38,105 nt of DNA. Origin: a virus. Every line of letters starts with the position of its first letter. Position 1 is the first letter of the stretch. Made by a program: the position numbers and the translations under genes. The DNA lies in IMG/VR virus record IMGVR_UViG_3300035698_005606, positions 1-38,105 of that record. One strand, 5' to 3'. The notes under the pieces were generated by a model that was not told where the DNA came from, did no database searches, and was given only the letters and a program-made list of their open reading frames with translations. Below, piece by piece: positions 7,508 through 38,105 of the stretch.

Positions 7508-8566
7508 TTACAAATCCTTTAATCCGTCCGTTGTTACCTGGAAAGGGGCTTCTCCGTCTGGTAAGTTTGGTGCATCTATTAACTTCGCAACTCTGCTTCC
7601 TTTCTTGCCATGTCTTAAATAAATTCTAAACATACTTCTGTGACCTACTATATGTCCGCCTACGCTTGCAGTTGGGTCTCCGAAGAATTGGTCTGGTTTA
7701 CTCATAACTTGATTAGTCACATATACACATAAATTATGTTGGTCAGCTAATTTAGCTAGTACGTTCATATGTCTATTTATTTTCTGTTGTCTATCTGCTA
7801 ATGTTCCTCGACCTACAAATTCTGCTCTAAACAATGCTATTAAAGAATCTACAACAACTAACTGAATATTCATTTTATCTTTCTTAATTAAATCAATTAC
7901 TTTCTCAGCTAGTAACATCTGGTGGTCTGAATTATGTGCTTTAGCCACTTTAACATTCTTGAGAACTTTTTCTTCGTCTAGTCCTGCGCCTTTAGCCATT
8001 TCTCTTAATCTACTTGGTCTGAAACTTCCTTCTGTGTCAATATACACAGCCACTGCCGTTGGGTCTTGTTTTTGAACATTAACACATAGCTGGTGAGCAA
8101 TTTGTGTCTTAGAACTGCCGTATTGCCCAAAACATTCAACTATCGCTTTAGTCTCAAATCCGCCTCTAAGCATTTCGTCAAAAGCTGCTACGCCTGTCGA
8201 TATTCTAATTACGCTTTCTCGGTCTTTCTCAATTTGAATTGCGTCAGCAAAACCCATATTTAGATTTTCTCTAGCAATATTTATCGTTTTTCTTGCTACT
8301 GCTTCTCCGAAACCACAGGCTTGAGTTAATTGACCGGGACTTGCCACAGCTATACTCATAATATCATAGAATCCTGAAGCTCTTAATTTTTCTGCACTTA
8401 ATGGTCCTACTCCTGGCAAATCTTCAATTTCAGATATTTTTGCAGGTTTTGGAACTTCCACTTTTTTTACTTCAGGTTTTTTCACTATTTTCTGTTCTAC
8501 TTTAGGTTCTGTCATATTCATTCCTTGAAAACTTTTTTTAGTTTCTTCTTTTTTAATTTCAGTCAT
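7508..8566 (-). CDS. radA: RadA recombinase
   Basis: Archaeal RecA/Rad51-family strand-exchange protein of normal length (352 aa). A disordered Lys-rich N-terminus (1-45) is followed by helix-hairpin-helix repeats (LPGVGPLSAEKL at about 49-60, then ACGFGEAVARKTI). The ATPase core starts near 120 with GFETKAIVECFGQYGSSKTQ, the Walker A region, where the usual G-K is S-K. Walker B is LVVVDSLIALFR near residue 240. TNQVMSKPD and GGHIVGH near 290-310 match loops L1/L2. The ATG has a strong GGAGG site. Its presence implies recombination-dependent replication or repair by the virus, and supports an archaeal host. Confidence 0.95.
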   Translation of the reverse strand: MTEIKKEETKKSFQGMNMTEPKVEQKIVKKPEVKKVEVPKPAKISEIEDLPGVGPLSAEKLRASGFYDIMSIAVASPGQLTQACGFGEAVARKTINIARENLNMGFADAIQIEKDRESVIRISTGVAAFDEMLRGGFETKAIVECFGQYGSSKTQIAHQLCVNVQKQDPTAVAVYIDTEGSFRPSRLREMAKGAGLDEEKVLKNVKVAKAHNSDHQMLLAEKVIDLIKKDKMNIQLVVVDSLIALFRAEFVGRGTLADRQQKINRHMNVLAKLADQHNLCVYVTNQVMSKPDQFFGDPTASVGGHIVGHRSMFRIYLRHGKKGSRVAKLIDAPNLPDGEAPFQVTTDGLKDL

Positions 8567-9475: not shown

Positions 9476-9958
9476 TTATCTATCTTCGGGATTCTTATAA
9501 TCCATTCCTAAAGCTTCGTAAACTGATTCTTCTGTTTCTCCTGCTATGAATGTTTCTCCTTGCCATAAACCATATTGATTTAATTTATAGCCTAAATCTG
9601 TTGCTTTACCACGCATTTTAATATTTGTTTCTGGACTGCCTGTTGAATAACAAAGTAGTGCTCCAAATCCTTTTCTTGGTGCAACGTATAATTCTATTTT
9701 AATTCCGTTTTTACGTCCACCTTTTAAAATTCCCATCGGTTCTTTTTTAACTTGGTTTCTATGTAACTCATCTGCCCATTTAACAAAGGCAGTTTCAAAA
9801 TCGAAAAAATCTTCTTTTGCTATACATACATCAATATCGCCTATGTCATTTAGGTTTCTTCTAACGCTACCTGCAACAACTACTCCAGGATGTAATTTTT
9901 CTATCTCTTCGGCTACTGGTGCTACAAATAATCTTGGTCTTCTCATTTCTTTACTCAT
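9476..9958 (-). CDS. Minimal Pol X / beta-type nucleotidyltransferase
   Basis: The 160 residues match the palm and thumb of family X DNA polymerases. AGSVRRNLNDIGDIDVCI at about 30-47 is the G-S-x-R-R...D-x-D nucleotidyltransferase motif. ALLCYSTGS near 100 and MRGKATDLGYKLNQYGLW follow, and the C-terminus DYKNPEDR is like the last segment of Pol beta. The N-terminal 8-kDa and fingers domains are absent. The third carboxylate appears as Glu (KIELYV) where Asp is usual. It may be a gap-filling polymerase or a terminal transferase acting with RadA and SSB. Its start overlaps the gene upstream by 4 bases. Confidence 0.85.
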   Translation of the reverse strand: MSKEMRRPRLFVAPVAEEIEKLHPGVVVAGSVRRNLNDIGDIDVCIAKEDFFDFETAFVKWADELHRNQVKKEPMGILKGGRKNGIKIELYVAPRKGFGALLCYSTGSPETNIKMRGKATDLGYKLNQYGLWQGETFIAGETEESVYEALGMDYKNPEDR

Positions 9959-15738: not shown

Positions 15739-18700
15739 TTATTCGATTATCACATAAGCTTTATTCGCCGAATCTGTACCTTTTATATTCCAAGATACAT
15801 AATTAGTCGGTGTTGCGCTCTGGAAAGTTGTTGTACCAGTGCCATATATCAATACATTGCTACCACCTAAATCGTATGGTGTAGTTATAACACATTCATC
15901 GCTAGATTGTATAAGCCAATCTCCACTACCTGCATATACGCAAGAACTTTCCACTTCAATCCAAAAGGTCATAGGTTCGCCATATTCAGTTCCATCTGTA
16001 ATATTAATTGTACAATTTGCTAATCCTACGTAATCTGTAACGCTTGTTAATGATAATGATGTATTTTCAAAAGTCCAGTTTATCGTTGCTGCATCATAAT
16101 AAATTTCTGCGTTAGAACCTGTACTATCCCAAATAGAGTGAGTTCCGGTATCTGAATAACAAGTTACTGAACCCCATCCTTCCGTAAATGATACATATCT
16201 ATATTTAAATTCTGTAGTAGAATAGTCAAAACATTTAGCAGGAATTTCGTATTCTACTGTACCCGCTAACCCATTTTTAAATGTCATCGTAGATGTATTA
16301 GTTATACCTTCCGGTCTTTCAACAGTTATGTCTATTGTTGCAGCATCTCCACCATCATTAGTAGCAGAAGTACCAATATCACCATCAAATAAATGCTCTA
16401 TATTCGTCCAATGTCCATTATCAACATAAGTGGTAGTATTCAATCCTCCACACTCATTTGAAACATTAAATTCTTGGTAGCAATATGGGTACGGATATTG
16501 AGTAATTGTGCAATTTACTGCACTAGCGTTTTCATATTGTACTCCGAAAGTAACTGTATCGCCATCACTATCATTAGCATAAAGGGATAAATTATTTAAA
16601 TAAGTGATTGTGCCAAAATTTGCTTCTTGAGTAGTATTACTTATATTATATAACCAGTATGGAGGTGTGTTTGAAGGAGATGTTTCAGTTAAATCATAAA
16701 TCCCAAAATCATCCAAGAAAACTTCTGCATTTGAAGAGTCTGCACCAAAATCAAAGAATATTGCAGGAGTATCATTCATCATAGTTGTACCGCCTGAAAC
16801 AGTTACTCCGTCAATTTTGATGTCGTAAGTTGAGTTAGTATAATATAAATATACTTGATAATGTTTCCAGGTACTAATTTCATCATCATCTATCTTCCTA
16901 TATTGTTGACTTCCACTATAATACATCTCTTTAGTATCAGCAGACAAATAATTGTAAAAGTAGACATTAGATACGTCTTGTTCAAAACCATAATTACAAG
17001 TTCCACTAGAAATCATATTCATAGTTTGTATGTTATTATAATAAACATAATAATCCATCATATAGTTTTTAGATGCATTTAAAGTTATTCCTGCTGAAGC
17101 TAAACTTAAACTTGCTACAAGATTGTTAGTGCTATCTCTTTTAACTCTCATAGAATATGAACCGCTTTTAGCTTGTGTTGTGCTTCTTTCCATAATTCCA
17201 TTAGTTGCTGCGTGAGTACTTCTTCCAAGTTTTGTCCAATAAGTATTGTCATATTCGAAACTAGTACCGTATATTAAACTATCATTTATTATGCTACCGT
17301 AGTTATAATCTAATAATATTTCCCTTTCAGATAAACCCCTGTCATATGTTTTAACTTCGTCAATTAAACCTCTAAATTTTGAACCATCGGCATAATCTAT
17401 TCCCATACTGAGAGGTACACTGCCTGCCCGTATAGTACCATAAGCCATACTTCCTATAGTGACATCAACGCCATTAACATATAAATATAAATTTCCTGCT
17501 GAAGCCATAAAAGTCACATAGTTCCATTCATTAATTGTAACCGAATTTACTGTTGAAAGTATTCCTTTGTTTGAACCATCATATACATAAGCTTGTAACT
17601 GATTAGTTCCAGCTGTTCTAAATATGAAATGGTGGTCTCCACCATGCCAATCATTTAGTATCGTACCTAGTCTAGCTGAATCTGTAGGATATATCCACGC
17701 AGAAATAGTAAAGTTTGTACTTACACCCAAATTATTTAGTTCTGATGATGTTACTCTAATATAATCATCTGTGCCATCAAAATCATAAGAGTTAGTACTT
17801 CCATTACCACTAATATTATAAATAGGATAACTTGTACTTTGAGTTGCACCTGTAACTATACCATCGTTAAAACTCCAACTATCTAAAGCATTACCGTTAA
17901 AGTTCCAGTAGGATATCCCTCCTGTAGGGATAAAATGTTCTGGACCATATTCATTACCATAATTAAATACGTTTGTAACTTCTCTAGGATTTAAATCTCT
18001 AGTCCATATTTTTAATTCATCTAATATTCCAGTATAATAACCAGCAATTGAACCTTTATCATTACCCGCCCCAACTGCAAAATCATATTGTACATTTAAT
18101 GTTCCTGATAAAGAATCAGAATCTTCTAATATACCGTTCACATATAATTTCATAGTCGTACCGTCCCAAGTTCCCAACACATGGTTCCAAGATTCCTCTG
18201 AAATGTTAGTTGTTGCCTGTACCTCTGCAATGCTTCCAGCAGAATTACGCAATCCAAATCTTGGGTATCCTGTAATAATTCTAAACTGAATATTAGTTTT
18301 ATCTGCATCTCCCGCCCCAGTTGTACTACCAAAAACATATTGAGTTGCCGCAGAATCTTGATGATGATATGCCCAATATGAAAATGTGAAAGATGTTAAT
18401 CCTGTAGGAGAATAACCTAAATCGACATACTCGCTATTACTACCGTCAAAAATTCCTGAATTTGCAATTCCTGCACCATCACCATCTCCTGAAATATTAA
18501 AAGTGGGAAATTTAGTATTATATTGCATACTATGAACTACCCCATCCTCAGAATTCCATTGGTCATTTACTTGATTTTGAAAATCGTAATATGACTGTCT
18601 GTCTGGAGCTGAAGGGTCAGTATTATTATACCAAGGGTCCAGTAAAAACAATTTGCTTTGTGCGATTGCTTCTGCAAATGTTAAAGCAGATGGTTTAAAA

Positions 18701-19977
18701 GCTATATCATACTTTCCTTCTTGTCCTTTTGGGTCAATCATAGCTTTGATAATATACTCTTGGTCGATGTTCATATTAACATCTTCTAAAGCATACCATT
18801 TAGTTTTGTTATCATATTCGTATTCTATAGTTCTGAATTTTGATTTAATATCCATCCATTGTTTTTCTTTGTTTTCTTCCCAGTAAATTGTATAATTAGT
18901 TAAATTGTAAGTATCAAAAGAGTGTTCCCAAGCTAGTTCTTCTGTAATATTCCAACAGTATAATACTTTAGGATTAGTTGTATAAGTATAAGTTTGCGGA
19001 GGAGCACATGTTGCAGACTCTTCAACAGTCACGTTGTGAGGATTGTAATAATCAGCTGTACTTGGTTGTACTTCGCTTGTATTAAAACCAAATAAAATAT
19101 CAACATTTCCACTATATTGTTTGTTGGTAAATTTAAATTCTACTTCTTGCTTACCTGTAATAGTGTGAGGAGTTGCTACTATATTTACTAGACTATTATT
19201 GACATAAACTGAATCTCCATCTATTGTCCAGTTCCATTCTACTATTGGGTCGAATAGTCTAACATTAAAAACTTCATAGTCAGAATCTATATCATATTGA
19301 GCTGCTACACTATCACTTCCGTAAGGATAACCTATCCAAGCCCATCTATAACCTTCTTCTAATTCTACGTTCATATTCATACCAAAATTTAATTTATATT
19401 CGTTAATTAATTTACGTTTAACTCCAGTGTCTTTTAAATCGTCTACTGAATATCTATAGAAATATTTTGAACCGTTATATATCTTGATTATATGTGAAAT
19501 GGGGAATAATTCAATATCGTCTATGTTACCATCGTAAGTATATTCGTCTACGATTACTGCACCATTTTGGTATGGCGTATATCTGCCTATTAAAGTGGAA
19601 TTGATTTTAAGTAAATTTATCATACCTTCATTAAATATCTCTGAATCTTCTACTAGATTAGAAGTCCAAATACCTAAACTGTTTCTAGCACTTCTACTTA
19701 TTACTATATCTGTATCGTTCTTAAAAACAGATTCTACTATAACATTTCTTGCGTCTCTGTATTGTAAAGTTGTTCCTGAAAATAAACGGTTACTTTCACG
19801 ACCAGATACTAAAAATCTACCGTAAGGCTCACCATCAGAATTTAAATATTTAATATAAAAAACTGATTCGTCTTTATTAATATTCATTTTTGCGTTATCG
19901 TTGAAAATGATATACACGCCAGCTGAAGCTAATAATAAGGTTAAAAATCCTACTATAAATATTTTAGTCTCTACCAT
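15739..19977 (-). CDS. Membrane-anchored LamG adhesin (1412 aa)
   Basis: Residues 5-25 (IFIVGFLTLLLASAGVYIIF) form an N-terminal anchor or signal. Residues 40-460 are beta-rich with repeated Asn-x-Ser/Thr sites. Two concanavalin-like LamG domains follow at about 465-670 and 690-895, each ending in the family wording L/I-D-E-L/V-K-x-W/Y...Y/F-N-Y-G. A third lectin-like domain occupies about 900-1090, then a cadherin-like repeat with NDSDGDTVTF near 1140. It is the last gene of the late operon, behind the fibre genes. It probably binds host-surface sugars. The anchor is unusual for a tail fibre and suggests that it passes through, or sits in, the host membrane. Confidence 0.8.
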   Translation of the reverse strand: MVETKIFIVGFLTLLLASAGVYIIFNDNAKMNINKDESVFYIKYLNSDGEPYGRFLVSGRESNRLFSGTTLQYRDARNVIVESVFKNDTDIVISRSARNSLGIWTSNLVEDSEIFNEGMINLLKINSTLIGRYTPYQNGAVIVDEYTYDGNIDDIELFPISHIIKIYNGSKYFYRYSVDDLKDTGVKRKLINEYKLNFGMNMNVELEEGYRWAWIGYPYGSDSVAAQYDIDSDYEVFNVRLFDPIVEWNWTIDGDSVYVNNSLVNIVATPHTITGKQEVEFKFTNKQYSGNVDILFGFNTSEVQPSTADYYNPHNVTVEESATCAPPQTYTYTTNPKVLYCWNITEELAWEHSFDTYNLTNYTIYWEENKEKQWMDIKSKFRTIEYEYDNKTKWYALEDVNMNIDQEYIIKAMIDPKGQEGKYDIAFKPSALTFAEAIAQSKLFLLDPWYNNTDPSAPDRQSYYDFQNQVNDQWNSEDGVVHSMQYNTKFPTFNISGDGDGAGIANSGIFDGSNSEYVDLGYSPTGLTSFTFSYWAYHHQDSAATQYVFGSTTGAGDADKTNIQFRIITGYPRFGLRNSAGSIAEVQATTNISEESWNHVLGTWDGTTMKLYVNGILEDSDSLSGTLNVQYDFAVGAGNDKGSIAGYYTGILDELKIWTRDLNPREVTNVFNYGNEYGPEHFIPTGGISYWNFNGNALDSWSFNDGIVTGATQSTSYPIYNISGNGSTNSYDFDGTDDYIRVTSSELNNLGVSTNFTISAWIYPTDSARLGTILNDWHGGDHHFIFRTAGTNQLQAYVYDGSNKGILSTVNSVTINEWNYVTFMASAGNLYLYVNGVDVTIGSMAYGTIRAGSVPLSMGIDYADGSKFRGLIDEVKTYDRGLSEREILLDYNYGSIINDSLIYGTSFEYDNTYWTKLGRSTHAATNGIMERSTTQAKSGSYSMRVKRDSTNNLVASLSLASAGITLNASKNYMMDYYVYYNNIQTMNMISSGTCNYGFEQDVSNVYFYNYLSADTKEMYYSGSQQYRKIDDDEISTWKHYQVYLYYTNSTYDIKIDGVTVSGGTTMMNDTPAIFFDFGADSSNAEVFLDDFGIYDLTETSPSNTPPYWLYNISNTTQEANFGTITYLNNLSLYANDSDGDTVTFGVQYENASAVNCTITQYPYPYCYQEFNVSNECGGLNTTTYVDNGHWTNIEHLFDGDIGTSATNDGGDAATIDITVERPEGITNTSTMTFKNGLAGTVEYEIPAKCFDYSTTEFKYRYVSFTEGWGSVTCYSDTGTHSIWDSTGSNAEIYYDAATINWTFENTSLSLTSVTDYVGLANCTINITDGTEYGEPMTFWIEVESSCVYAGSGDWLIQSSDECVITTPYDLGGSNVLIYGTGTTTFQSATPTNYVSWNIKGTDSANKAYVIIE

Positions 19978-27272: not shown

Positions 27273-28321
27273 CTTTCTTCTACCTCTCCCTTGTGAACTA
27301 ACATATCACACCTATAACCGTCAAGTTTAGATACTATATGTGTGCATTCTTGAATTTCAAATATTCCTCGTAATCCTATTGAGCCGTCATCTTGAATATT
27401 AACTAAGCCTCTTTTCTTATATGATGGACTTCCAGTAGCTGATACTTGACCAGTTATTTTTTTCTTTTTTTCTGCTTCTAATAAACTTTCTGCATATTCT
27501 TGTACTGATGCTGCGTCTCCTAAACCTGCATTATATACTATGATTTCTCTTCTAGCCTGTCCATCATTTAAACTTTCTGAATCTTCAGCAGTATATGTTA
27601 AAGTTGTTTCTTCATTTACTAATCCTGCTTTAACTGTAACTACATTATGAGAAGCTTCTGCATCGTCAACTTCTCCTGCAATTAAATTCTCTGCATACTT
27701 AATTTGAATTGCTTGACCATCTTTTACATCTTTAGGGTACCAAGTCATAATTTTATTCGATAATACTACTATGTCGTAACCGTGTTGGTCAGCTAAAGAT
27801 TTTAATACTTCCATTTTAGTCATTTCTTCATCAAAAATTAAAACCGGATTATCTGATGGGCTTCCTAAAATTGTCGTAGGTGCATTAATTATGTTCAAAG
27901 TCAAACCACTACTAGAAATTATTGAACTTGCTATGCTGTATAATATTTGTTTTGTGAAACTATTATCTTCGCCTATCTTTTCGGATAATAAATTAAATTC
28001 TAAACCTGCGCATTCTATAGTTAAACTTGCACCTTCGCCTGATGATAGACTTGGTTTTCTTGAAACTACGTTACCTGAAAATACTATTGCCCTACCAGTT
28101 TCCTTATAGCCTAATTCTATTTCAACTAAATCTCCTTTTGCAATTTTATCGAAATTTCTTTTACCGGAATCATCTTTCATATTATCCATAACTAAAGAAG
28201 CAGAATCTGCACTTTCCATTCTTTGAACTATTTGAATTGTAGATACTCCACTATTCGTATCTGCAGTAAATTTTCCTATAGTCAGTAAATAATCTGGACT
28301 AATGCCTATATTATTAACCAT
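27269..28321 (-). CDS. Baseplate hub gpD-like protein (350 aa)
   Basis: It has the arrangement of the late-control protein D/gp44 hub: a first barrel (residues 10-105 with RAIVFSGNVVSRKPSLSSGE), then ILYSIASSIISSSGL, DQHGYDIVVLSNKIMTWYP, and a C-terminal barrel (GQVSATGSPSYKKRGLVNI). It forms the tail hub to which gpV attaches, and precedes gpV directly. Confidence 0.8.
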   Translation of the reverse strand: MVNNIGISPDYLLTIGKFTADTNSGVSTIQIVQRMESADSASLVMDNMKDDSGKRNFDKIAKGDLVEIELGYKETGRAIVFSGNVVSRKPSLSSGEGASLTIECAGLEFNLLSEKIGEDNSFTKQILYSIASSIISSSGLTLNIINAPTTILGSPSDNPVLIFDEEMTKMEVLKSLADQHGYDIVVLSNKIMTWYPKDVKDGQAIQIKYAENLIAGEVDDAEASHNVVTVKAGLVNEETTLTYTAEDSESLNDGQARREIIVYNAGLGDAASVQEYAESLLEAEKKKKITGQVSATGSPSYKKRGLVNIQDDGSIGLRGIFEIQECTHIVSKLDGYRCDMLVHKGEVEES

Positions 28322-28583
28322 TTTTATGCTCTCTCCTCATATGCACATACCATTGACCTACTGTTTTGAAATCTTTGTTACATACATCGCAATGATTTAG
28401 AGATACTCCTATTCTTTTCCATTCAGTTAATATTCCTTGAAATAACATCCTTTGATAAAAATGCGATTCGTTAGGTAACTCTTTAATATCGTAAGATGTT
28501 TCCGATGTTCGTTTTAATATTAATCCATATTTATCTTTATATGAAGAAATGTCTCCTCCCATTATAACTAATCTTTTAGTCAA
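28314..28583 (-). CDS. C2H2 zinc-finger protein within the tail operon (89 aa)
   Basis: I choose TTG in a TTGA overlap with the gene upstream, 9 bases after GGAGG, giving MTKRLVIMGG. A later ATG, seven codons on, is the alternative. Residues 60-85 hold CDVCNKDFKTVGQWYVHMRR with a final EH, a complete C2H2 finger. The N-terminal half is a small strand-rich domain. It sits between hub genes, where a baseplate-size chaperone or hub adaptor is expected. Zinc fingers are rare there. Confidence 0.7.
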   Translation of the reverse strand: MTKRLVIMGGDISSYKDKYGLILKRTSETSYDIKELPNESHFYQRMLFQGILTEWKRIGVSLNHCDVCNKDFKTVGQWYVHMRREHKNG

Positions 28584-29218
28584 GAAAACCAACCTCCAAA
28601 TGTATTAGCTACACTTCTAACTCCTCTTATAATTCCACCAAAAAAACCAATATCTTCAGCAGGTTCATCTGCAACTATATCAGTACCATCTTCTACCATA
28701 ATACTTTGTGTTGCTTCTTTACCAAACGATAACCAAGATGCTTGATAAGTAGATTGGTTTTCTATCAGTGAGTAAGCTTCTAATGCTTGTTCAGCAGGTT
28801 CTTTATTTACATTATATACTTGATTAACTTTTAATGTAGTTTTAGTATATTGTTTTAATGATAACGTGTAATTGTAAGTAAAAGGTTTACCACCAACTTC
28901 CTCGTAAGTGAAATTTTCTACTAAATATTCTCTTGTTTCAAGAATGTTTAAAATTCCTGCAGTCATTGATTTTGTTCCGCCACTCATCATTTTTTTACGT
29001 AACTTTTTTAGAACATCTTGTTTATCTTGTCTAGAATTAGTAAATATTTTACCATTTAATTCTATTTGAGCAGGACTACTTCCCATATCTTGTAAAACGT
29101 TACCTTCTCTTCCAGGAATAGTCTGCTCAGCTATAACTCTCGTTTCATTAACTTTGATGCTAGATGGATTTACTCCTAAGAATATTCCATCTATAAATAC
29201 TTTAGCTCGATTAACCAT
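28580..29218 (-). CDS. Tail hub-associated protein (212 aa)
   Basis: The first 130 residues read as a beta-rich domain common in tail proteins after the tape measure: FIDGIFLGVNPSSIKVNETR, IPGREGNVLQDMGSSPAQIE, then LNILETREYLVENFTYEE. The last 70 residues are less ordered and end in the aromatic GGWFS. It may be the DNA-circularisation-N / XkdP-like component linking tape measure and hub. Its start overlaps the tape-measure stop by 8 bases. Confidence 0.6.
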   Translation of the reverse strand: MVNRAKVFIDGIFLGVNPSSIKVNETRVIAEQTIPGREGNVLQDMGSSPAQIELNGKIFTNSRQDKQDVLKKLRKKMMSGGTKSMTAGILNILETREYLVENFTYEEVGGKPFTYNYTLSLKQYTKTTLKVNQVYNVNKEPAEQALEAYSLIENQSTYQASWLSFGKEATQSIMVEDGTDIVADEPAEDIGFFGGIIRGVRSVANTFGGWFS

Positions 29219-32200
29219 AATTTAGTCTCCTTTCCTTTTTTAATAATGACGCTAATTTTTGAGCAATTGCACTTATATCCATATTATTTGCTATTTTTAC
29301 TCCACTTAAATCTATCTTGATGTCTCCTTCTTTTATTGAAGTTACGCTACCGCCAGTTTGAACTGGTTGGTCTATAGCACTAGCAACCGGCATTTCTGTT
29401 GCAGTTGGTTGCGCTATTTGAGTTGCTGAATCAATAATTGGTTTTAATATTGGGCTATCAATTATCGGTTTAATCATATCTAACATCGGACTTAATACTG
29501 GAGTTAAATTTTCTGTCATAGGTTGTGCTATCGGTTTTAACGTGTCTACTATCGGAGCAACTACTGGTGCAATTTTTGTAACGAATTTATCCCATAGTCC
29601 GCCCAACATATTTTTTACTTTACCTAAAATTCCTTTTAATGAATCGTATAAAGCACTAGCTGAACTAACAAGTCCTGATATAAATGATGTTATTAAATCT
29701 TTTCCTGCAGTGGTAAATTTTGTACTTAAAGATGAAAACCAAGATGTAATTCCTGACCATATTGTTGAAAATCCTGATTTTATATTTTCCCAAGTAAATA
29801 TTTTACTTAATACTTTTACAAGTCCAAAGATTGCTTTAAATATTAATTTGTTCCATCCTATTATTATTTTTGGTACTAATTTAAATATACTCATAATCAT
29901 TTTAGGAATACCCCACAAAGTATATTTTAATACGCCCAATATTACTTTTCCAAGTCCTATTAACGTAGATTTTGTTCCTTCAAATAAATTAATGAATCCA
30001 TCTTTAATCATACCTTTATTTCCTGAGAATAATCCTACAATCATTTGGAATACTCCCTTAAATTGTTGGTAAATTCCTCCGAAATATTGTTTAATACCAG
30101 CCCAAACTTGCTTTATTGCCGATAACATAGTCATTGCGGCATTTACTATTCCTGCCAGTGGTCCTTCTCCAGATAATCCTTTAGTCCATAACTCTTTTAA
30201 TTTTTTGAAAACGTAAACCACAGCCATAACTGTTCCAATTAATGGTAAAAATGCTAAAGCTAAAACTTTACCTATATTTTCTGCGTAAGGTTTTAATTTT
30301 TTGAACCAACCTACTAAAGTTACTATGCCTTTTATTATTTCCATAATGGGATTGATTATGAATAATAACATAGTCCCTAATACTTTAAATGCTCCACCAA
30401 TTCCAGGAAGTTCTTCAAGTTTTTTCCAGGCTTTAACTAACCATACAATACCTCTAACCAATCCGCCTATTACAGTTCCAATAAACCAACCTAACGCTTT
30501 CGCTACTGGTTGTATAACTTTCCATATTACATCGAATACTTTCATAATTACGTCGCTAAATGAAGTTGCTTCTCCGCCTGCTGAATCGAATACTGAAAAA
30601 GAATCTGCAATAATATTCCATAATTCTTTAATTGCCGACATTGCAGGTTTGAAAGCGGTAACAAATGATTTCCAAACTTGAACCCAGAATTTAGCCATCA
30701 TTAAAAAATTAGATATAAAGCGAGTATACATTGCAGCATAAACTTTAGCTATAAATGTTGCTGCTCCAGCCATACCTTTTGCAACTCTACTTACTATTGA
30801 AGAAAAATTGTTAAGAGAACTTTCTGAATCTTTAAATCCGCCTGAAATACTATTAACGAAACCTTTTACTGCTTTAATTACTGGTTGCATACCTGATACA
30901 AAAGTCGTAATGAATGCTTTAACTACAGTTTTTATTCCGCCAAACACTATTTTCATTCTTTTCCATAGACCACTTACAATATCTTGTATACCGAAAATAT
31001 TCTTTTGCCAAGCTTTATACAAAACGTAACCTATTGCAGCTAACAAAGCCATAACTGCTATTACTTTAATGAATAATAAAGCTACTACGCCTAACATTGA
31101 ACCTAAAAAGCCCATAGTTAATTGGATTCCTATAATTGCAGCCGTAACTGCTCCTGCCACTGCTATCAACCCTAATAGTGCAACAGTTATTTTTAAAATG
31201 TTTTTACCTATTTTTGTTTGCGTAAATTTATTAAATTGTTCTAATAAAGCTGTTAATTTTTTTGTTACTAAAACGACTACTGGTGCAAGTGCTGCTCCGA
31301 ATTGTTCTACTGCAGTTGCTACTACACCTTTTAAAATTCTGTTCATATATTCTAAAGATTTATTCATTTCTGTGATTATGCTTGATGCAGTATTTGCTGA
31401 TTTAAATGCTGTTGTTAATGCGTTAGTTTCTTGTGCTCCTGCGTTCATAAATTTTGCGAATGCTGTTGCTGCTTCGATTCCTAAATCCATCTCCGAAACT
31501 AAATCGTCTATTGCATTAGCATCTCCACCTATAGATTTTTGTAAAGCATTAAAACTTTCTCCAGACATTTCCCAAGCTTTAGTCTGAGTTAGTGCATGTT
31601 TAAAAGATGCCGCTTCATTTGATAGAGTTTTTTCTTTTAAACTATCTAAATTTGCGCCCATTTGCATCATCTGGTTTGCTGCTCGTGAACCGAACATTTC
31701 TGCAAATAAACTTAATTTTGCTAATCTTCCTAAATCTGCAGTTTTTTCTTCCATTAACTCTAAAGTTTTAACTAAATCTAATGAGCCTTTTCTTATTCCT
31801 TCACCGAATGTAATCTGGTCAACAGTCAGGCCTAATTTTTCGAAAGCAGCTTTTGCTCCTGTTGCAGAATCTTCAGATATGCCTAATCCTTTTGCTAATC
31901 TGATGAAACCCATTCTCATACCTGCTCCTGCAACTGAACCTTTTATACCTGTATCTGCCAGAACTCCTATTGCAGCTGATACTTCAGGAATACTTACTCC
32001 CAATGTGTTTGCTGAAGCAGAAACGTAAGTTAATGCTTCGCCTAATTGAGTCATATTTAAGGCTGAACTTGTAACTGTGTTAGTCATAACGTCTACTATA
32101 CTTCTCATTTCTTTAGCTTCTCTACCGAAAGCTCTCATAGTATTTACTACAAATCCTGTAGCTTCTGCTAAATCTATATCTGATGCGGCAGCTAAATCTA

Positions 32201-32588
32201 GGACTGAAGATAAAGATTTTACTGTTTCTTCTGCAGTTAAACCTGCCATAGTCATCATAGTTTCTGCTTCACCTACTTGTTTTCCAGTAAACATAGTTGC
32301 TTGACCGTATTTAATTGCAGCTTCTCTTAATTTATCGTAAGCGTCTTCACCTTCACCAGATAAAGCGGCTGCTCTTCTAACGCCATAATCGAATTCAGAA
32401 AATGCTTTGACAGATGCTATACCCATATCTACTAGTTTTTTAGACATCATAGTTAGTCCTGCTGCAATTACACCAGCACCCATTTTATTCGCAGAAATAA
32501 GACTATTTAAACCTTGATTTGCTTCTTTAAAAGCTTTACCGGTATGATTTACACCTTCCAGTATTACTTCAACAACGTGTTTTGCCAT
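29211..32588 (-). CDS. Tail tape-measure protein (1125 aa)
   Basis: Residues 70-280 match the TP901-type tape-measure domain (TGKQVGEAETMMTMAGLTAE, SSALNMTQLGEALTYVSASA, then ADTGIKGSVAGAGMRMGFIR). Hydrophobic segments between about 450 and 950, rich in Gly, Trp and Lys, are typical of the channel-forming central part. The C-terminal third is Pro/Ile-rich with repeats of PIIDS and PILKPI. It sets the tail length and follows the frameshifted chaperone, the standard order. Confidence 0.95.
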   Translation of the reverse strand: MAKHVVEVILEGVNHTGKAFKEANQGLNSLISANKMGAGVIAAGLTMMSKKLVDMGIASVKAFSEFDYGVRRAAALSGEGEDAYDKLREAAIKYGQATMFTGKQVGEAETMMTMAGLTAEETVKSLSSVLDLAAASDIDLAEATGFVVNTMRAFGREAKEMRSIVDVMTNTVTSSALNMTQLGEALTYVSASANTLGVSIPEVSAAIGVLADTGIKGSVAGAGMRMGFIRLAKGLGISEDSATGAKAAFEKLGLTVDQITFGEGIRKGSLDLVKTLELMEEKTADLGRLAKLSLFAEMFGSRAANQMMQMGANLDSLKEKTLSNEAASFKHALTQTKAWEMSGESFNALQKSIGGDANAIDDLVSEMDLGIEAATAFAKFMNAGAQETNALTTAFKSANTASSIITEMNKSLEYMNRILKGVVATAVEQFGAALAPVVVLVTKKLTALLEQFNKFTQTKIGKNILKITVALLGLIAVAGAVTAAIIGIQLTMGFLGSMLGVVALLFIKVIAVMALLAAIGYVLYKAWQKNIFGIQDIVSGLWKRMKIVFGGIKTVVKAFITTFVSGMQPVIKAVKGFVNSISGGFKDSESSLNNFSSIVSRVAKGMAGAATFIAKVYAAMYTRFISNFLMMAKFWVQVWKSFVTAFKPAMSAIKELWNIIADSFSVFDSAGGEATSFSDVIMKVFDVIWKVIQPVAKALGWFIGTVIGGLVRGIVWLVKAWKKLEELPGIGGAFKVLGTMLLFIINPIMEIIKGIVTLVGWFKKLKPYAENIGKVLALAFLPLIGTVMAVVYVFKKLKELWTKGLSGEGPLAGIVNAAMTMLSAIKQVWAGIKQYFGGIYQQFKGVFQMIVGLFSGNKGMIKDGFINLFEGTKSTLIGLGKVILGVLKYTLWGIPKMIMSIFKLVPKIIIGWNKLIFKAIFGLVKVLSKIFTWENIKSGFSTIWSGITSWFSSLSTKFTTAGKDLITSFISGLVSSASALYDSLKGILGKVKNMLGGLWDKFVTKIAPVVAPIVDTLKPIAQPMTENLTPVLSPMLDMIKPIIDSPILKPIIDSATQIAQPTATEMPVASAIDQPVQTGGSVTSIKEGDIKIDLSGVKIANNMDISAIAQKLASLLKKERRLNYG

Positions 32589-32638
32589 GTTCCTAAATTT
32601 AACTCCTAAATTATGCGTTAATTATCTCTCTTTATTAC

Positions 32639-33189
32639 TCAACGCCTTCTTGCACGTCCTTTAGCTGCTTGTTTTTGTTTCTTTCTTTGTTCATCATTCC
32701 ATCCAGCTATAAGAAATTCTCTTTGAACTGGAGTCATGTTAGCTATACTATCATAACTTTGGTTGAAATGACGAATGAAGATATACACCCATCTACCTTC
32801 ACTAACTACAAGTTTTTTGCTTCAGCTACCATTTCTTTACTAATACCACTTATCTCGTTAATTTTGTTTGAAATTACGTTAACTAAACCTATCGGTATAG
32901 AATCTATTTGGTCGTCAGACATTGCTGGTTCTACAAGTGCTTGTTTTATTAAATATCGTGATACTGCTGATGTGTTTCCGCCTGCAGCTTTTGTTGCTTT
33001 TTGGACAATCTTTAAAGTTACTGGTTTTACTTTTACCATACCTTTAATATCTCTTGTGTTAATTTCTACTGCGTGAACTAAATCTGAACCACTAACTAAA
33101 TCTTCTGCACTTAATAATATTCCTGGTTTAATAACTGGACCTGATTGTTTTTTTTCTACTTCTTTATTTTGACTTAAATCTTCTACCAT
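32639..33189 (-). CDS. Tail assembly chaperone with -1 frameshift (183 aa)
   Basis: The zero frame runs 32806-33189 (127 aa, ends EAKNL). At 32812-32818 the minus-strand sequence is A AAA AAC in the correct phase for tandem slippage. A -1 shift joins residue 126 to a 57-residue extension ending at 32639: VYIFIRHFNQSYDSIANMTP, then REFLIAGWNDEQ and a basic tail. That extension, with M-T-P-x-x-R/E-F-L-I-A-G-W, is like the second half of the phage G/GT-type chaperones. Both products would fold the tape measure downstream. Confidence 0.85.
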
Positions 33190-33261
33190 TTTATATATCC
33201 TCCTAAATTGTCGTTAATTCCCAAAAGGTTTCTCTACTTTCTCTCTCTCAGGTTATCTATA

Positions 33262-33295
33262 ATTTAATTAAAAAAATAAAGGGTTTTATTCCCCT
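33262..33295 (-). terminator. Hairpin and T-run after the tail-tube gene
   Basis: On the minus strand AGGG and CCCT pair over an 8-base loop containing the tube stop codon, then comes TTTATTTTTTTAATT. Archaeal transcription often stops at such a T-run. It would lower expression of the chaperone and tape measure compared with sheath and tube. Confidence 0.5.
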
Positions 33296-33726
33296 AAAGT
33301 TTCTGTTGCTCTGCTAATATTAACTGCTTCGAAATCAACTGATTCCATAACCCAGTCTTCCGCAGGTAAGTCCCAACTGAAAGTGTCTATCTTTACACCT
33401 TTTAGAGTTATGCTTTCGTTTTTTCCTGTTCTTGAATTAGATACAAGTCCAACAATTTCAAACTCTGGTATTCTTTGTTGTGCAAACATAGTTTCGCCTT
33501 CTCCACCTATTGCTAATTCTAATTTAGCGGAGTTAATGAATCCACTTGAAATACTTCCTGAAACTTCGAAATTACCTTCTTTTAATTCTGCAGTAATTCT
33601 GCTTCCCACTTCAAAGTATTTATCTAAATTATTGCTAACGTCTATTGAGAAAGATTCAACTCTACCAACAACGTCACCATTCATCATAATAGTTCCTTCG
33701 AAGCCTTTATACATTTTTTCAGCCAT
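33286..33726 (-). CDS. Tail tube protein (146 aa)
   Basis: Sequence and position fit the XkdM/gpFII-type tail tube: GFEGTIMMNGDVVGRVESFS near the start, then FEVSGSISSGFINSAKLELA, and a last strand VDFEAVNISR. It polymerises into the inner tube inside the sheath. AGGAGG lies 9 bases before the ATG, and it follows the sheath gene with a hairpin between. Confidence 0.85.
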   Translation of the reverse strand: MAEKMYKGFEGTIMMNGDVVGRVESFSIDVSNNLDKYFEVGSRITAELKEGNFEVSGSISSGFINSAKLELAIGGEGETMFAQQRIPEFEIVGLVSNSRTGKNESITLKGVKIDTFSWDLPAEDWVMESVDFEAVNISRATETLGE

Positions 33727-33825: not shown

Positions 33826-35211
33826 TTATTCAAGATATATGATTACCTTAATAAAGTCGATACTGAATACAGGTTTTATTGTTAAATCTACTCTACATAC
33901 ACCAGCAATTTCTTGAGCTCTTGTCGCATATACTGATGTTTTGTAATATGTGATTGACTCGTCTGCCAACATACTATCCAAGAAACTATCAATTGTTCCT
34001 TTTAGAGATGTTCTAACTCTTGTATTGTTAAGTTTTCCTATGAAAGGTTTACCTGCAGTTCTTACTCCGTATTTGGAATAATCTACGATTCTTCTTGTTG
34101 TGATTTGTGCCCAAGCTGAATCTGTTGAACTTGTTATACCTTTTTGGATTCTTATTCCAGAATCTTTTCTAACTGCACAAACTCTAGCCAAAATTAAATC
34201 TTGGATGTTTGCTTTACTTTGGAAATATTCTGTATCAGTAATTCCGCTTAATACCTTATTAGTTGGACTAACGTGTACATCTAAACTTGATACTTTACCA
34301 CATACTGCTGCTGCTGTGTAACATCCGCCAAAATCGGCTAATGCGCCAGTTGCACTATATCTAGGTACGAATGTGATTCCTGGTGCTACATAAATAATTC
34401 TGTCTGAATTTACTCCATTCATATTATCTATAATAGTTGCGTTTAATTCTCCTTGCGCATTACCAATAAATCCTATTCTTTCTTCATCATTAGCTAACAT
34501 CTTTACAACGTGAGCCAAAAGATTACTTATATCTGTAGCACTCGACTGACCTGCTAAATTAACCATATTACATGAAACTGTTTCAAGAGTAGTTAATCCA
34601 TCGTCATAAGTAGTTGAAGTTACTGTTGAACCTGAATCTCCGCCTGTAAATGCTGAACTTACTGTTTGGTCTGGTTCTGTTTCTGTAGCTTTTATTGCAG
34701 TACATAATACTGAATTATTGTTTATGTTAGCTACCAAAATGTCTGCGTCATAAGCTGGTGTTGCTGCACCATCGCTTGCTGAATGGATTTCGTCCACTCC
34801 TAAGCTAGAATTTACAATTGTACATAATAATCTAGTTGTATCATAACTAACGGTAATGTTGTTACCTTGGTCTCCATCATATAATGCTGTTAAAGATACT
34901 ACGTCAACCGCACTAGCTTTTAAAGAACTAACTGCTTTATCTTTTGCGTCACTTGCAATTCTTACAACTCTTACTGTGTTAGCACCATTAGCATAAATTA
35001 AATTTAATGCTCTCGATAAAGTTACATCTGCTGAATCGTCACCGAATTGTGTTAAAACTTCTGCGAATGAGCCTACAGTTACTGGTTCGTCTATTGGACC
35101 CCAATCTGCTGTTCCTATACATCCAACTACTCCAACTGCTCCGGGTGTTACTGTAGTAAGTCCTTCTGCTTTAACATCTATACTTACTCCAGGAATTATT
35201 TGGTCTGTCAT
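33826..35211 (-). CDS. Tail sheath protein (461 aa)
   Basis: MTDQIIPGVSIDVKAEGLTT and VVGCIGTADWGPIDEPVTVG, then FAEVLTQFGDD (residues 1-60), are typical of contractile sheath proteins. TTRRIVDYSKYG...KPFIGKLNNTRVRTSLKGTI near residues 375-415 and a C-terminal strand VDLTIKPVFSIDFIKVIIYL complete the family pattern. Length is normal. It marks the virus as a myovirus. GGAGG lies 8 bases before ATG. Confidence 0.95.
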   Translation of the reverse strand: MTDQIIPGVSIDVKAEGLTTVTPGAVGVVGCIGTADWGPIDEPVTVGSFAEVLTQFGDDSADVTLSRALNLIYANGANTVRVVRIASDAKDKAVSSLKASAVDVVSLTALYDGDQGNNITVSYDTTRLLCTIVNSSLGVDEIHSASDGAATPAYDADILVANINNNSVLCTAIKATETEPDQTVSSAFTGGDSGSTVTSTTYDDGLTTLETVSCNMVNLAGQSSATDISNLLAHVVKMLANDEERIGFIGNAQGELNATIIDNMNGVNSDRIIYVAPGITFVPRYSATGALADFGGCYTAAAVCGKVSSLDVHVSPTNKVLSGITDTEYFQSKANIQDLILARVCAVRKDSGIRIQKGITSSTDSAWAQITTRRIVDYSKYGVRTAGKPFIGKLNNTRVRTSLKGTIDSFLDSMLADESITYYKTSVYATRAQEIAGVCRVDLTIKPVFSIDFIKVIIYLE

Positions 35212-37805: not shown

Positions 37806-38105
37806 TTAACTCCAACCTCTTAATGAAAACTTTGTAATTGATTTTGTTTCATTGTATAATGACAATACTTCAGAATAAGTAAGCGACCTGTTATAGATTC
37901 TAAACTCATCTATTCTACCATTGAACATTTCATTATTAGTTCCTATTGCTCCAACAATCATAAGTCCGACTGAATCGACATAAGGTGAAAGTCCTGTGGC
38001 TGTCCTGTCTAATTCGCCATTAATATATCCTTTAAGGGTAGTTCCATTTCTAACCATAACTATATTATTCCATACATTATCTTCATAAACTTTGGTACCC
38101 CAACC
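37806..38105 (-). CDS. LamG-domain protein, 3' end only
   Basis: The frame is open to the window edge. The visible 99 residues read GWGTKVYEDNVWNNIVMVRN then LKGYINGELDRT and FNGRIDEFRIYNRSLTYSEV, the last half of a LamG/concanavalin-like domain. The first ATG in the frame (38057) is internal to the domain, so the gene begins beyond the edge. It lies before the connector genes, where a capsid decoration or portal-side gene is expected, so it may be a head-surface adhesin. Confidence 0.8.
   Translation of the reverse strand, partial: GWGTKVYEDNVWNNIVMVRNGTTLKGYINGELDRTATGLSPYVDSVGLMIVGAIGTNNEMFNGRIDEFRIYNRSLTYSEVLSLYNETKSITKFSLRGWS

Follow-up and report, generated by a model that had tools for sequence, protein, structure and literature searches.

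The window analysed here, a 38,105-base IMG/VR virus record, very probably carries a G/G-T tail assembly chaperone gene that is read with a -1 frameshift and belongs to an archaeal, probably woesearchaeal (DPANN), tailed virus of the myovirus-like type. A programmed -1 shift in the tail chaperone had been proposed in a preliminary description of the sequence, and it finds support in the gene order, in the predicted fold of the zero-frame product and in the conservation of the -1 extension across independent DPANN-linked genomes. The tail genes of the window are all encoded on the minus strand and run from tail completion through sheath, tube, G (ORF A) and tape measure to the baseplate genes. 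The sheath protein (33826..35211; PHROG tail sheath, E 5e-53) is that of a contractile, myovirus-type tail. The 146-aa tube protein (33286..33726) is recognized by Pfam Phage_tube_2 (E 3.9e-11) and by PHROG tail families, and the 1125-aa tape measure protein (29211..32588) by PhageMin_Tail (E 3.3e-35) and a PHROG tape measure family (E 6e-57). These Pfam and PHROG assignments give the minus-strand order tube, G, G-T, tape measure, and place G between the tube gene (33726-33286) and the tape measure gene (32588-29211), as is the case for chaperones of the G/GT type. The head genes expected upstream of the tail genes are absent from the window, which is thus probably a fragment.

The zero frame, G, occupies 32806..33189 on the minus strand and codes for 127 aa up to a TAG stop (32808-32806); its identification as a chaperone draws on its position, its predicted fold and a BLASTP match to a DPANN-type relative, L121. 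The minus strand at its 3' end reads GCT GAA GCA AAA AAC TTG TAG. The preliminary description had placed a slippery heptamer A AAA AAC at 32812-32818, in phase and one codon before the zero-frame end, and the minus-strand sequence bears out each of these points: the zero-frame codons of the heptamer (32818-32812) are AAA and AAC, so that it conforms to X_XXY_YYZ in phase, and the single codon TTG separates it from the TAG. The first codon read after a tandem -1 slip would be CTT (32812-32810), and the frame continues as CTT GTA GTT AGT GAA GGT ... CGT TGA. This extension, T (32639..32812, minus strand), is open for 57 codons and ends in RRR before a TGA at 32641-32639, as translation confirmed.

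From this arrangement we infer that slippage takes place at some low efficiency, and that it would yield two products with a role in tail assembly. Most ribosomes would stop at the TAG and release the 127-aa G protein, while a minority would slip back by one base at A AAA AAC, where the P-site Lys-tRNA and the A-site Asn-tRNA could re-pair on AAA AAA. With the slip point after residue 126, the slipped ribosomes would produce a fusion of 183 aa, made up of 126 residues of G and 57 of T. By analogy with gpG and gpGT of phage lambda, G might serve as a coat for the tape measure protein, and tail tube subunits might be brought in by the T part, present at a low ratio.

The nearest -1-frame stop upstream of the slip site lies at 32824, and a productive slip is therefore possible only in about the last five zero-frame codons of G. 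Among the 8733 codons of the coding sequences predicted in the window, 47 (0.54%) begin a canonical in-phase heptamer and two begin A AAA AAC, which corresponds to a chance of about 3% for any canonical heptamer, and about 0.1% for A AAA AAC, to occur in the overlap of about five codons. A 56-codon open run has a probability of 0.014 under the dinucleotide composition of the region. Taken alone, these composition statistics are suggestive of a functional -1 frame; the evidence for more than chance that we regard as decisive is the homology of this frame to sequences in other genomes. The second in-phase A AAA AAC of the window is found at 33418-33424 on the minus strand, within the tube gene.

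Relatives were sought with a profile of the tape measure domain in 371 genomes from the DPANN phylum to which the best match of the RadA protein of the window belongs. Five of these genomes matched, and in three of the five, as the proviruses L113, L114 and L115, homologs of both G and T are present. The contig of L113 is 421 kb long and also encodes FtsZ and an archaeal CCA transferase, indicating that it is chromosomal. The same G/T pair is encoded by the IMG/VR contigs L119-L121 and L123. In a fourth genome of the same phylum (L117, 3935-4513) a G-like gene ends in the canonical heptamer A AAT TTT, beyond which a -1 ORF extends directly up to the tape measure gene. No close relatives of the window were found in the collections searched. 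As single-sequence queries, ORF A (G), the tube, the sheath, the baseplate J protein and RadA recovered no relatives in viral contigs, nor did ORF A in phages or the sheath in genome contigs, and a distant DNA search with 32500-33300 in phages was empty. Matches to a sheath alignment, considered as possible close relatives, led instead to haloviral myoviruses and similar contigs and were set aside, and weak phylum-wide matches of an extension profile (E 1e-3 to 1e-2) were treated as noise.

The second frame of the window gene is a conserved coding sequence that is joined to the first, as both frame-specific homology and the codon-position pattern show. Compared with the -1 extensions that lie upstream of the tape measure genes of L113 and L114, T reaches scores of 113-115, where the highest score among 5000 shuffles is 44, and a single BLASTP comparison with the T of L121 (E 3e-16) aligns 53 aa at 40% identity. 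The -1 frames of the window and of L113, L114, L121 and L123 align without gaps, with BLOSUM sums of +82 to +108, while the other two frames of the same DNA score -18 to -61. Among the relatives, the columns that vary after the zero-frame stop are distributed over the -1 codon positions as 22/13/39 (p 0.0009), and those before it over the zero-frame codon positions as 13/8/25 (p 0.007); such a concentration at the third position, in the -1 frame once the stop is passed, is expected for coding sequence. Homology of T begins upstream of every potential start within the -1 ORF, and the relatives share no conserved start codon in that region.

The preliminary description had tied its case to conservation of both the heptamer and the downstream frame. 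The frame and the position of the shift are indeed kept in the relatives L113, L114, L121 and L123; the heptamer is not, and its loss concerns distant relatives only. In an ungapped alignment GCA AAA AAC of the window lies over CGT TTT CCA or CGT TTT CAA of the relatives (AGT TTT CCA in L113), so that the shift sites occupy homologous columns and the heptamer differs. At that column the relatives have T TTT C and no canonical tandem heptamer, and a tandem slippage model was rejected for them as the site does not fit it. As their A-site codon could not re-pair in the -1 frame, slippage there would involve only the P-site tRNA, at T TTT. Identity of the slippery heptamer is not required in the G/GT-type chaperone family, in which the sites vary. 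With G and T of the relatives 25-40% identical to those of the window, such details need not transfer to the latter.

The relatives also share a hairpin of 9 to 10 bp, CCTCAGAAG.../...CTTCTGAGG, that starts 6 nt after the TTT. Folding of the sequence downstream of the heptamer in the window, where the preliminary description had suggested looking for a stem-loop or pseudoknot, revealed no structure of comparable strength. A weak candidate for a stimulatory hairpin lies at 32774..32803 on the minus strand, 8 nt after the heptamer and near the position of the conserved hairpin of the relatives; its constrained fold has -8.4 kcal/mol, against a minimum free energy of -10.1 with a competing stem, and its pair probability is about 0.07. 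Folding z-scores of window segments downstream of the heptamer range from -1.1 to -2.3. No Shine-Dalgarno stimulator is obvious upstream in the window, and no Rfam match is found at the locus. A strong tandem heptamer may need less stimulatory help. We consider it rather likely that DPANN ribosomes perform programmed -1 frameshifting, and that a homologous viral chaperone gene has retained the place of the shift while its signal was replaced, with a tandem A AAA AAC lacking a strong stimulator in the window and a single-tRNA T TTT C with a hairpin in the relatives.

Three other explanations of the overlapping frames bear on this interpretation. The same fusion product could arise by transcriptional slippage, if RNA polymerase were to add an A in the run of six A that the heptamer includes, as one extra A gives the same frame. 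Transcriptional slippage usually needs runs of 8-9 or more, however, so that six A is short, and at the homologous place the relatives show a run of just T4, together with a hairpin at the usual spacing of ribosomal frameshifting. Fusion products are known to arise by such slippage elsewhere (reviewed in PMC5009743), but we regard it as very improbable here. An indel introduced by sequencing or assembly in the A run would make G and T one continuous gene in which no shift is needed, and homopolymer errors are common in metagenome contigs. Yet the same frame change occurs at the same column in the independent contigs and genomes L113, L114, L115, L119-L121 and L123, where the local A run is absent; this explanation is largely refuted, and of the three we give it the smallest chance.

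Alternatively, T might be a separate gene, started within the -1 frame at a GTG at 32788 or at a later ATG by reinitiation after the stop of G. The GTG does lie within the -1 ORF (32639..32788 when counted from this codon), and AGGT a few bases upstream of it could act as a weak Shine-Dalgarno sequence. Homology in the SEG motif nevertheless reaches upstream of the GTG, at whose place the relatives have ATA, GTT, ATC and ATC, with no start codon before T position 18-19; a start at those later codons would cost T its conserved first helix. A separate T gene hence appears about as improbable as transcriptional slippage, and a ribosomal -1 shift at the end of G remains the preferred reading.

G has no significant match in Pfam or PHROG and none to a named chaperone family. 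Against L121 BLASTP gives E 9e-9 for a single comparison. A structural model of G, built from four sequences and with a core pLDDT of about 83, has as its nearest known structures YqbN (3klu, Z 7.8), RBSTP2171 (3fgx, Z 7.6) and the HK97 tail assembly chaperone (2ob9, Z 6.8), after which the next chain falls to Z 4.2. When the model was compared with predicted viral proteins, the high-ranking matches included several tail assembly chaperones, among them the one from the haloarchaeal myovirus ChaoS9. The model thus predicts, at middling Z-scores, the tail assembly chaperone fold of the HK97 chaperone and YqbN. As Foldseek E-values for G are weak, the position of the gene bears part of the argument for a chaperone. 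The model of T is a confident one of three helices (pLDDT 84), and a fold search with it returned weak matches only, some of them to tail assembly chaperones. A sequence-profile match of 20 residues to the PDB entry 4psj was discarded, as no stretch of it passes alone.

The host was approached through the archaeal-type RadA recombinase encoded at 7508..8566 on the minus strand (NCBIfam RadA equivalog, E 5e-124, above the cut-off). Woesearchaeal RadA sequences share up to 68% identity with this protein, which in a tree falls among Woesearchaeota, on a long branch and without strong local support. Its place among woesearchaeal sequences, together with the homologs of G and T in genomes of the same phylum, makes a DPANN host likely, though not proven. 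A search for the family of the sheath C-terminus recovered no member from the 371 genomes of this phylum, which suggests either another tail type in the DPANN relatives or sheaths that escaped the search.

A -1 frameshifted tail chaperone is a standard device of tailed phages. In lambda, gpG and gpGT are tail assembly chaperones made by programmed -1 ribosomal frameshifting (Xu, Hendrix and Duda 2004, reviewed in PMC5009743); they bind the tape measure protein, and the tube protein is recruited through T (PMC5009743). The window shares with lambda the location between tube and tape measure genes, a short ORF that ends just past a heptamer, a -1 extension of tens of codons and, if the analogy holds, the chaperone role. 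It differs from lambda in its contractile tail, its likely archaeal host and its A AAA AAC heptamer, and no sequence similarity to the lambda proteins was detected.

Among archaeal viruses, -1 frameshifting has been proposed for the chaperones of HVTV-1 and HCTV-1, 2 and 5, and +1 frameshifting for that of HSTV-2 (PMC5009743, PMC8211752). In the HF1 group a +1 shift has been proposed at TTT-CGC (PMC7230728), and the DNA of HSTV-2 and Hardycor2 likewise shows the TTT-CGC +1 arrangement; the GenBank records of HSTV-2 and HVTV-1 contain joined chaperone genes. The preliminary description, which considered such shifts seldom documented in archaeal viruses, is to be corrected here, as these haloviral cases are already on record (PMC5009743, PMC8211752, PMC7230728). 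The haloarchaeal siphoviruses HVTV-1 and HCTV-1/2/5 share with the window an archaeal host domain and the -1 direction, and in HVTV-1 the joined CDS is annotated directly before the tape measure gene, as in the window; unlike the window, HVTV-1 has no canonical heptamer that we could see near the end of the zero-frame ORF, and no homology of its extension to T was noticed. The myoviruses HSTV-2 and those of the HF1 group are proposed to shift by +1 at TTT CGC, in contrast to the -1 direction of the window, and their G parts are only 14-15% identical to its G. Like T, their extensions contain a TPxQR motif with a charged stretch behind it, a weak similarity (P 0.0006-0.006 per comparison) that is suggestive only. 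The likeness of MTPVQREFLIAGWND to GT-type extensions, first remarked on in the preliminary description, extends, though weakly, to the +1-shifted haloviral MTPFQRQVFEAE.

The closest parallels are the DPANN proviruses L113-L115 and the IMG/VR contigs L119-L121 and L123, with homologous G and T, the same shift column and the -1 direction; they differ from the window in the T TTT C site and the conserved hairpin, and in a protein identity of about 25-40%. For 38 head-tailed proviruses of Woesearchaeales, the archaeal order indicated by the RadA of the window, the published gene types include a tail assembly chaperone, and the main text of that study makes no mention of a frameshift (PMC11705971). 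Our literature search, which was thin on subscription journals, returned no report of frameshifted tail chaperones in DPANN-linked viruses. What is new here is the connection to DPANN archaea, together with a shift signal that has changed although its position has not; frameshifted chaperones of archaeal viruses as such were known already.

The only archaeal gene with experimental evidence of -1 frameshifting is fucA of Saccharolobus solfataricus; for some haloviruses the mechanism has been proposed (PMC8211752). With its textbook heptamer and a -1 frame retained by independent relatives, the present virus, which is linked to uncultured DPANN archaea, adds to the archaeal cases open to testing. 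Together with its relatives it also forms a natural series, constant in the position of the shift and variable in its signal. As regards annotation, it follows that tail chaperones of DPANN-linked viruses should be entered as joined genes.

Some additional features were observed in the course of the analysis. In several IMG/VR tail loci of unassigned host (L118, L127, L125, L129 and L131-L133), A AAA AAC precedes a -1 ORF that lies upstream of the tape measure gene. In the window, a small ORF at 28314-28592, located among the tail genes that follow the tape measure, has a C2H2 zinc-finger-like C-terminus with a sub-threshold Pfam match. A 1412-aa protein (15739-19977) with a hydrophobic N-terminus, and a partial ORF at the right end of the record (37806-38105), both contain LamG-like stretches recognized by eye and could be surface or adhesion proteins. 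The product of 9476-9958 is similar to a portion of DNA polymerase X (NCBIfam PRK08609; the match, at E 4e-10, falls far short of the cut-off). All four of these ORFs are on the minus strand.
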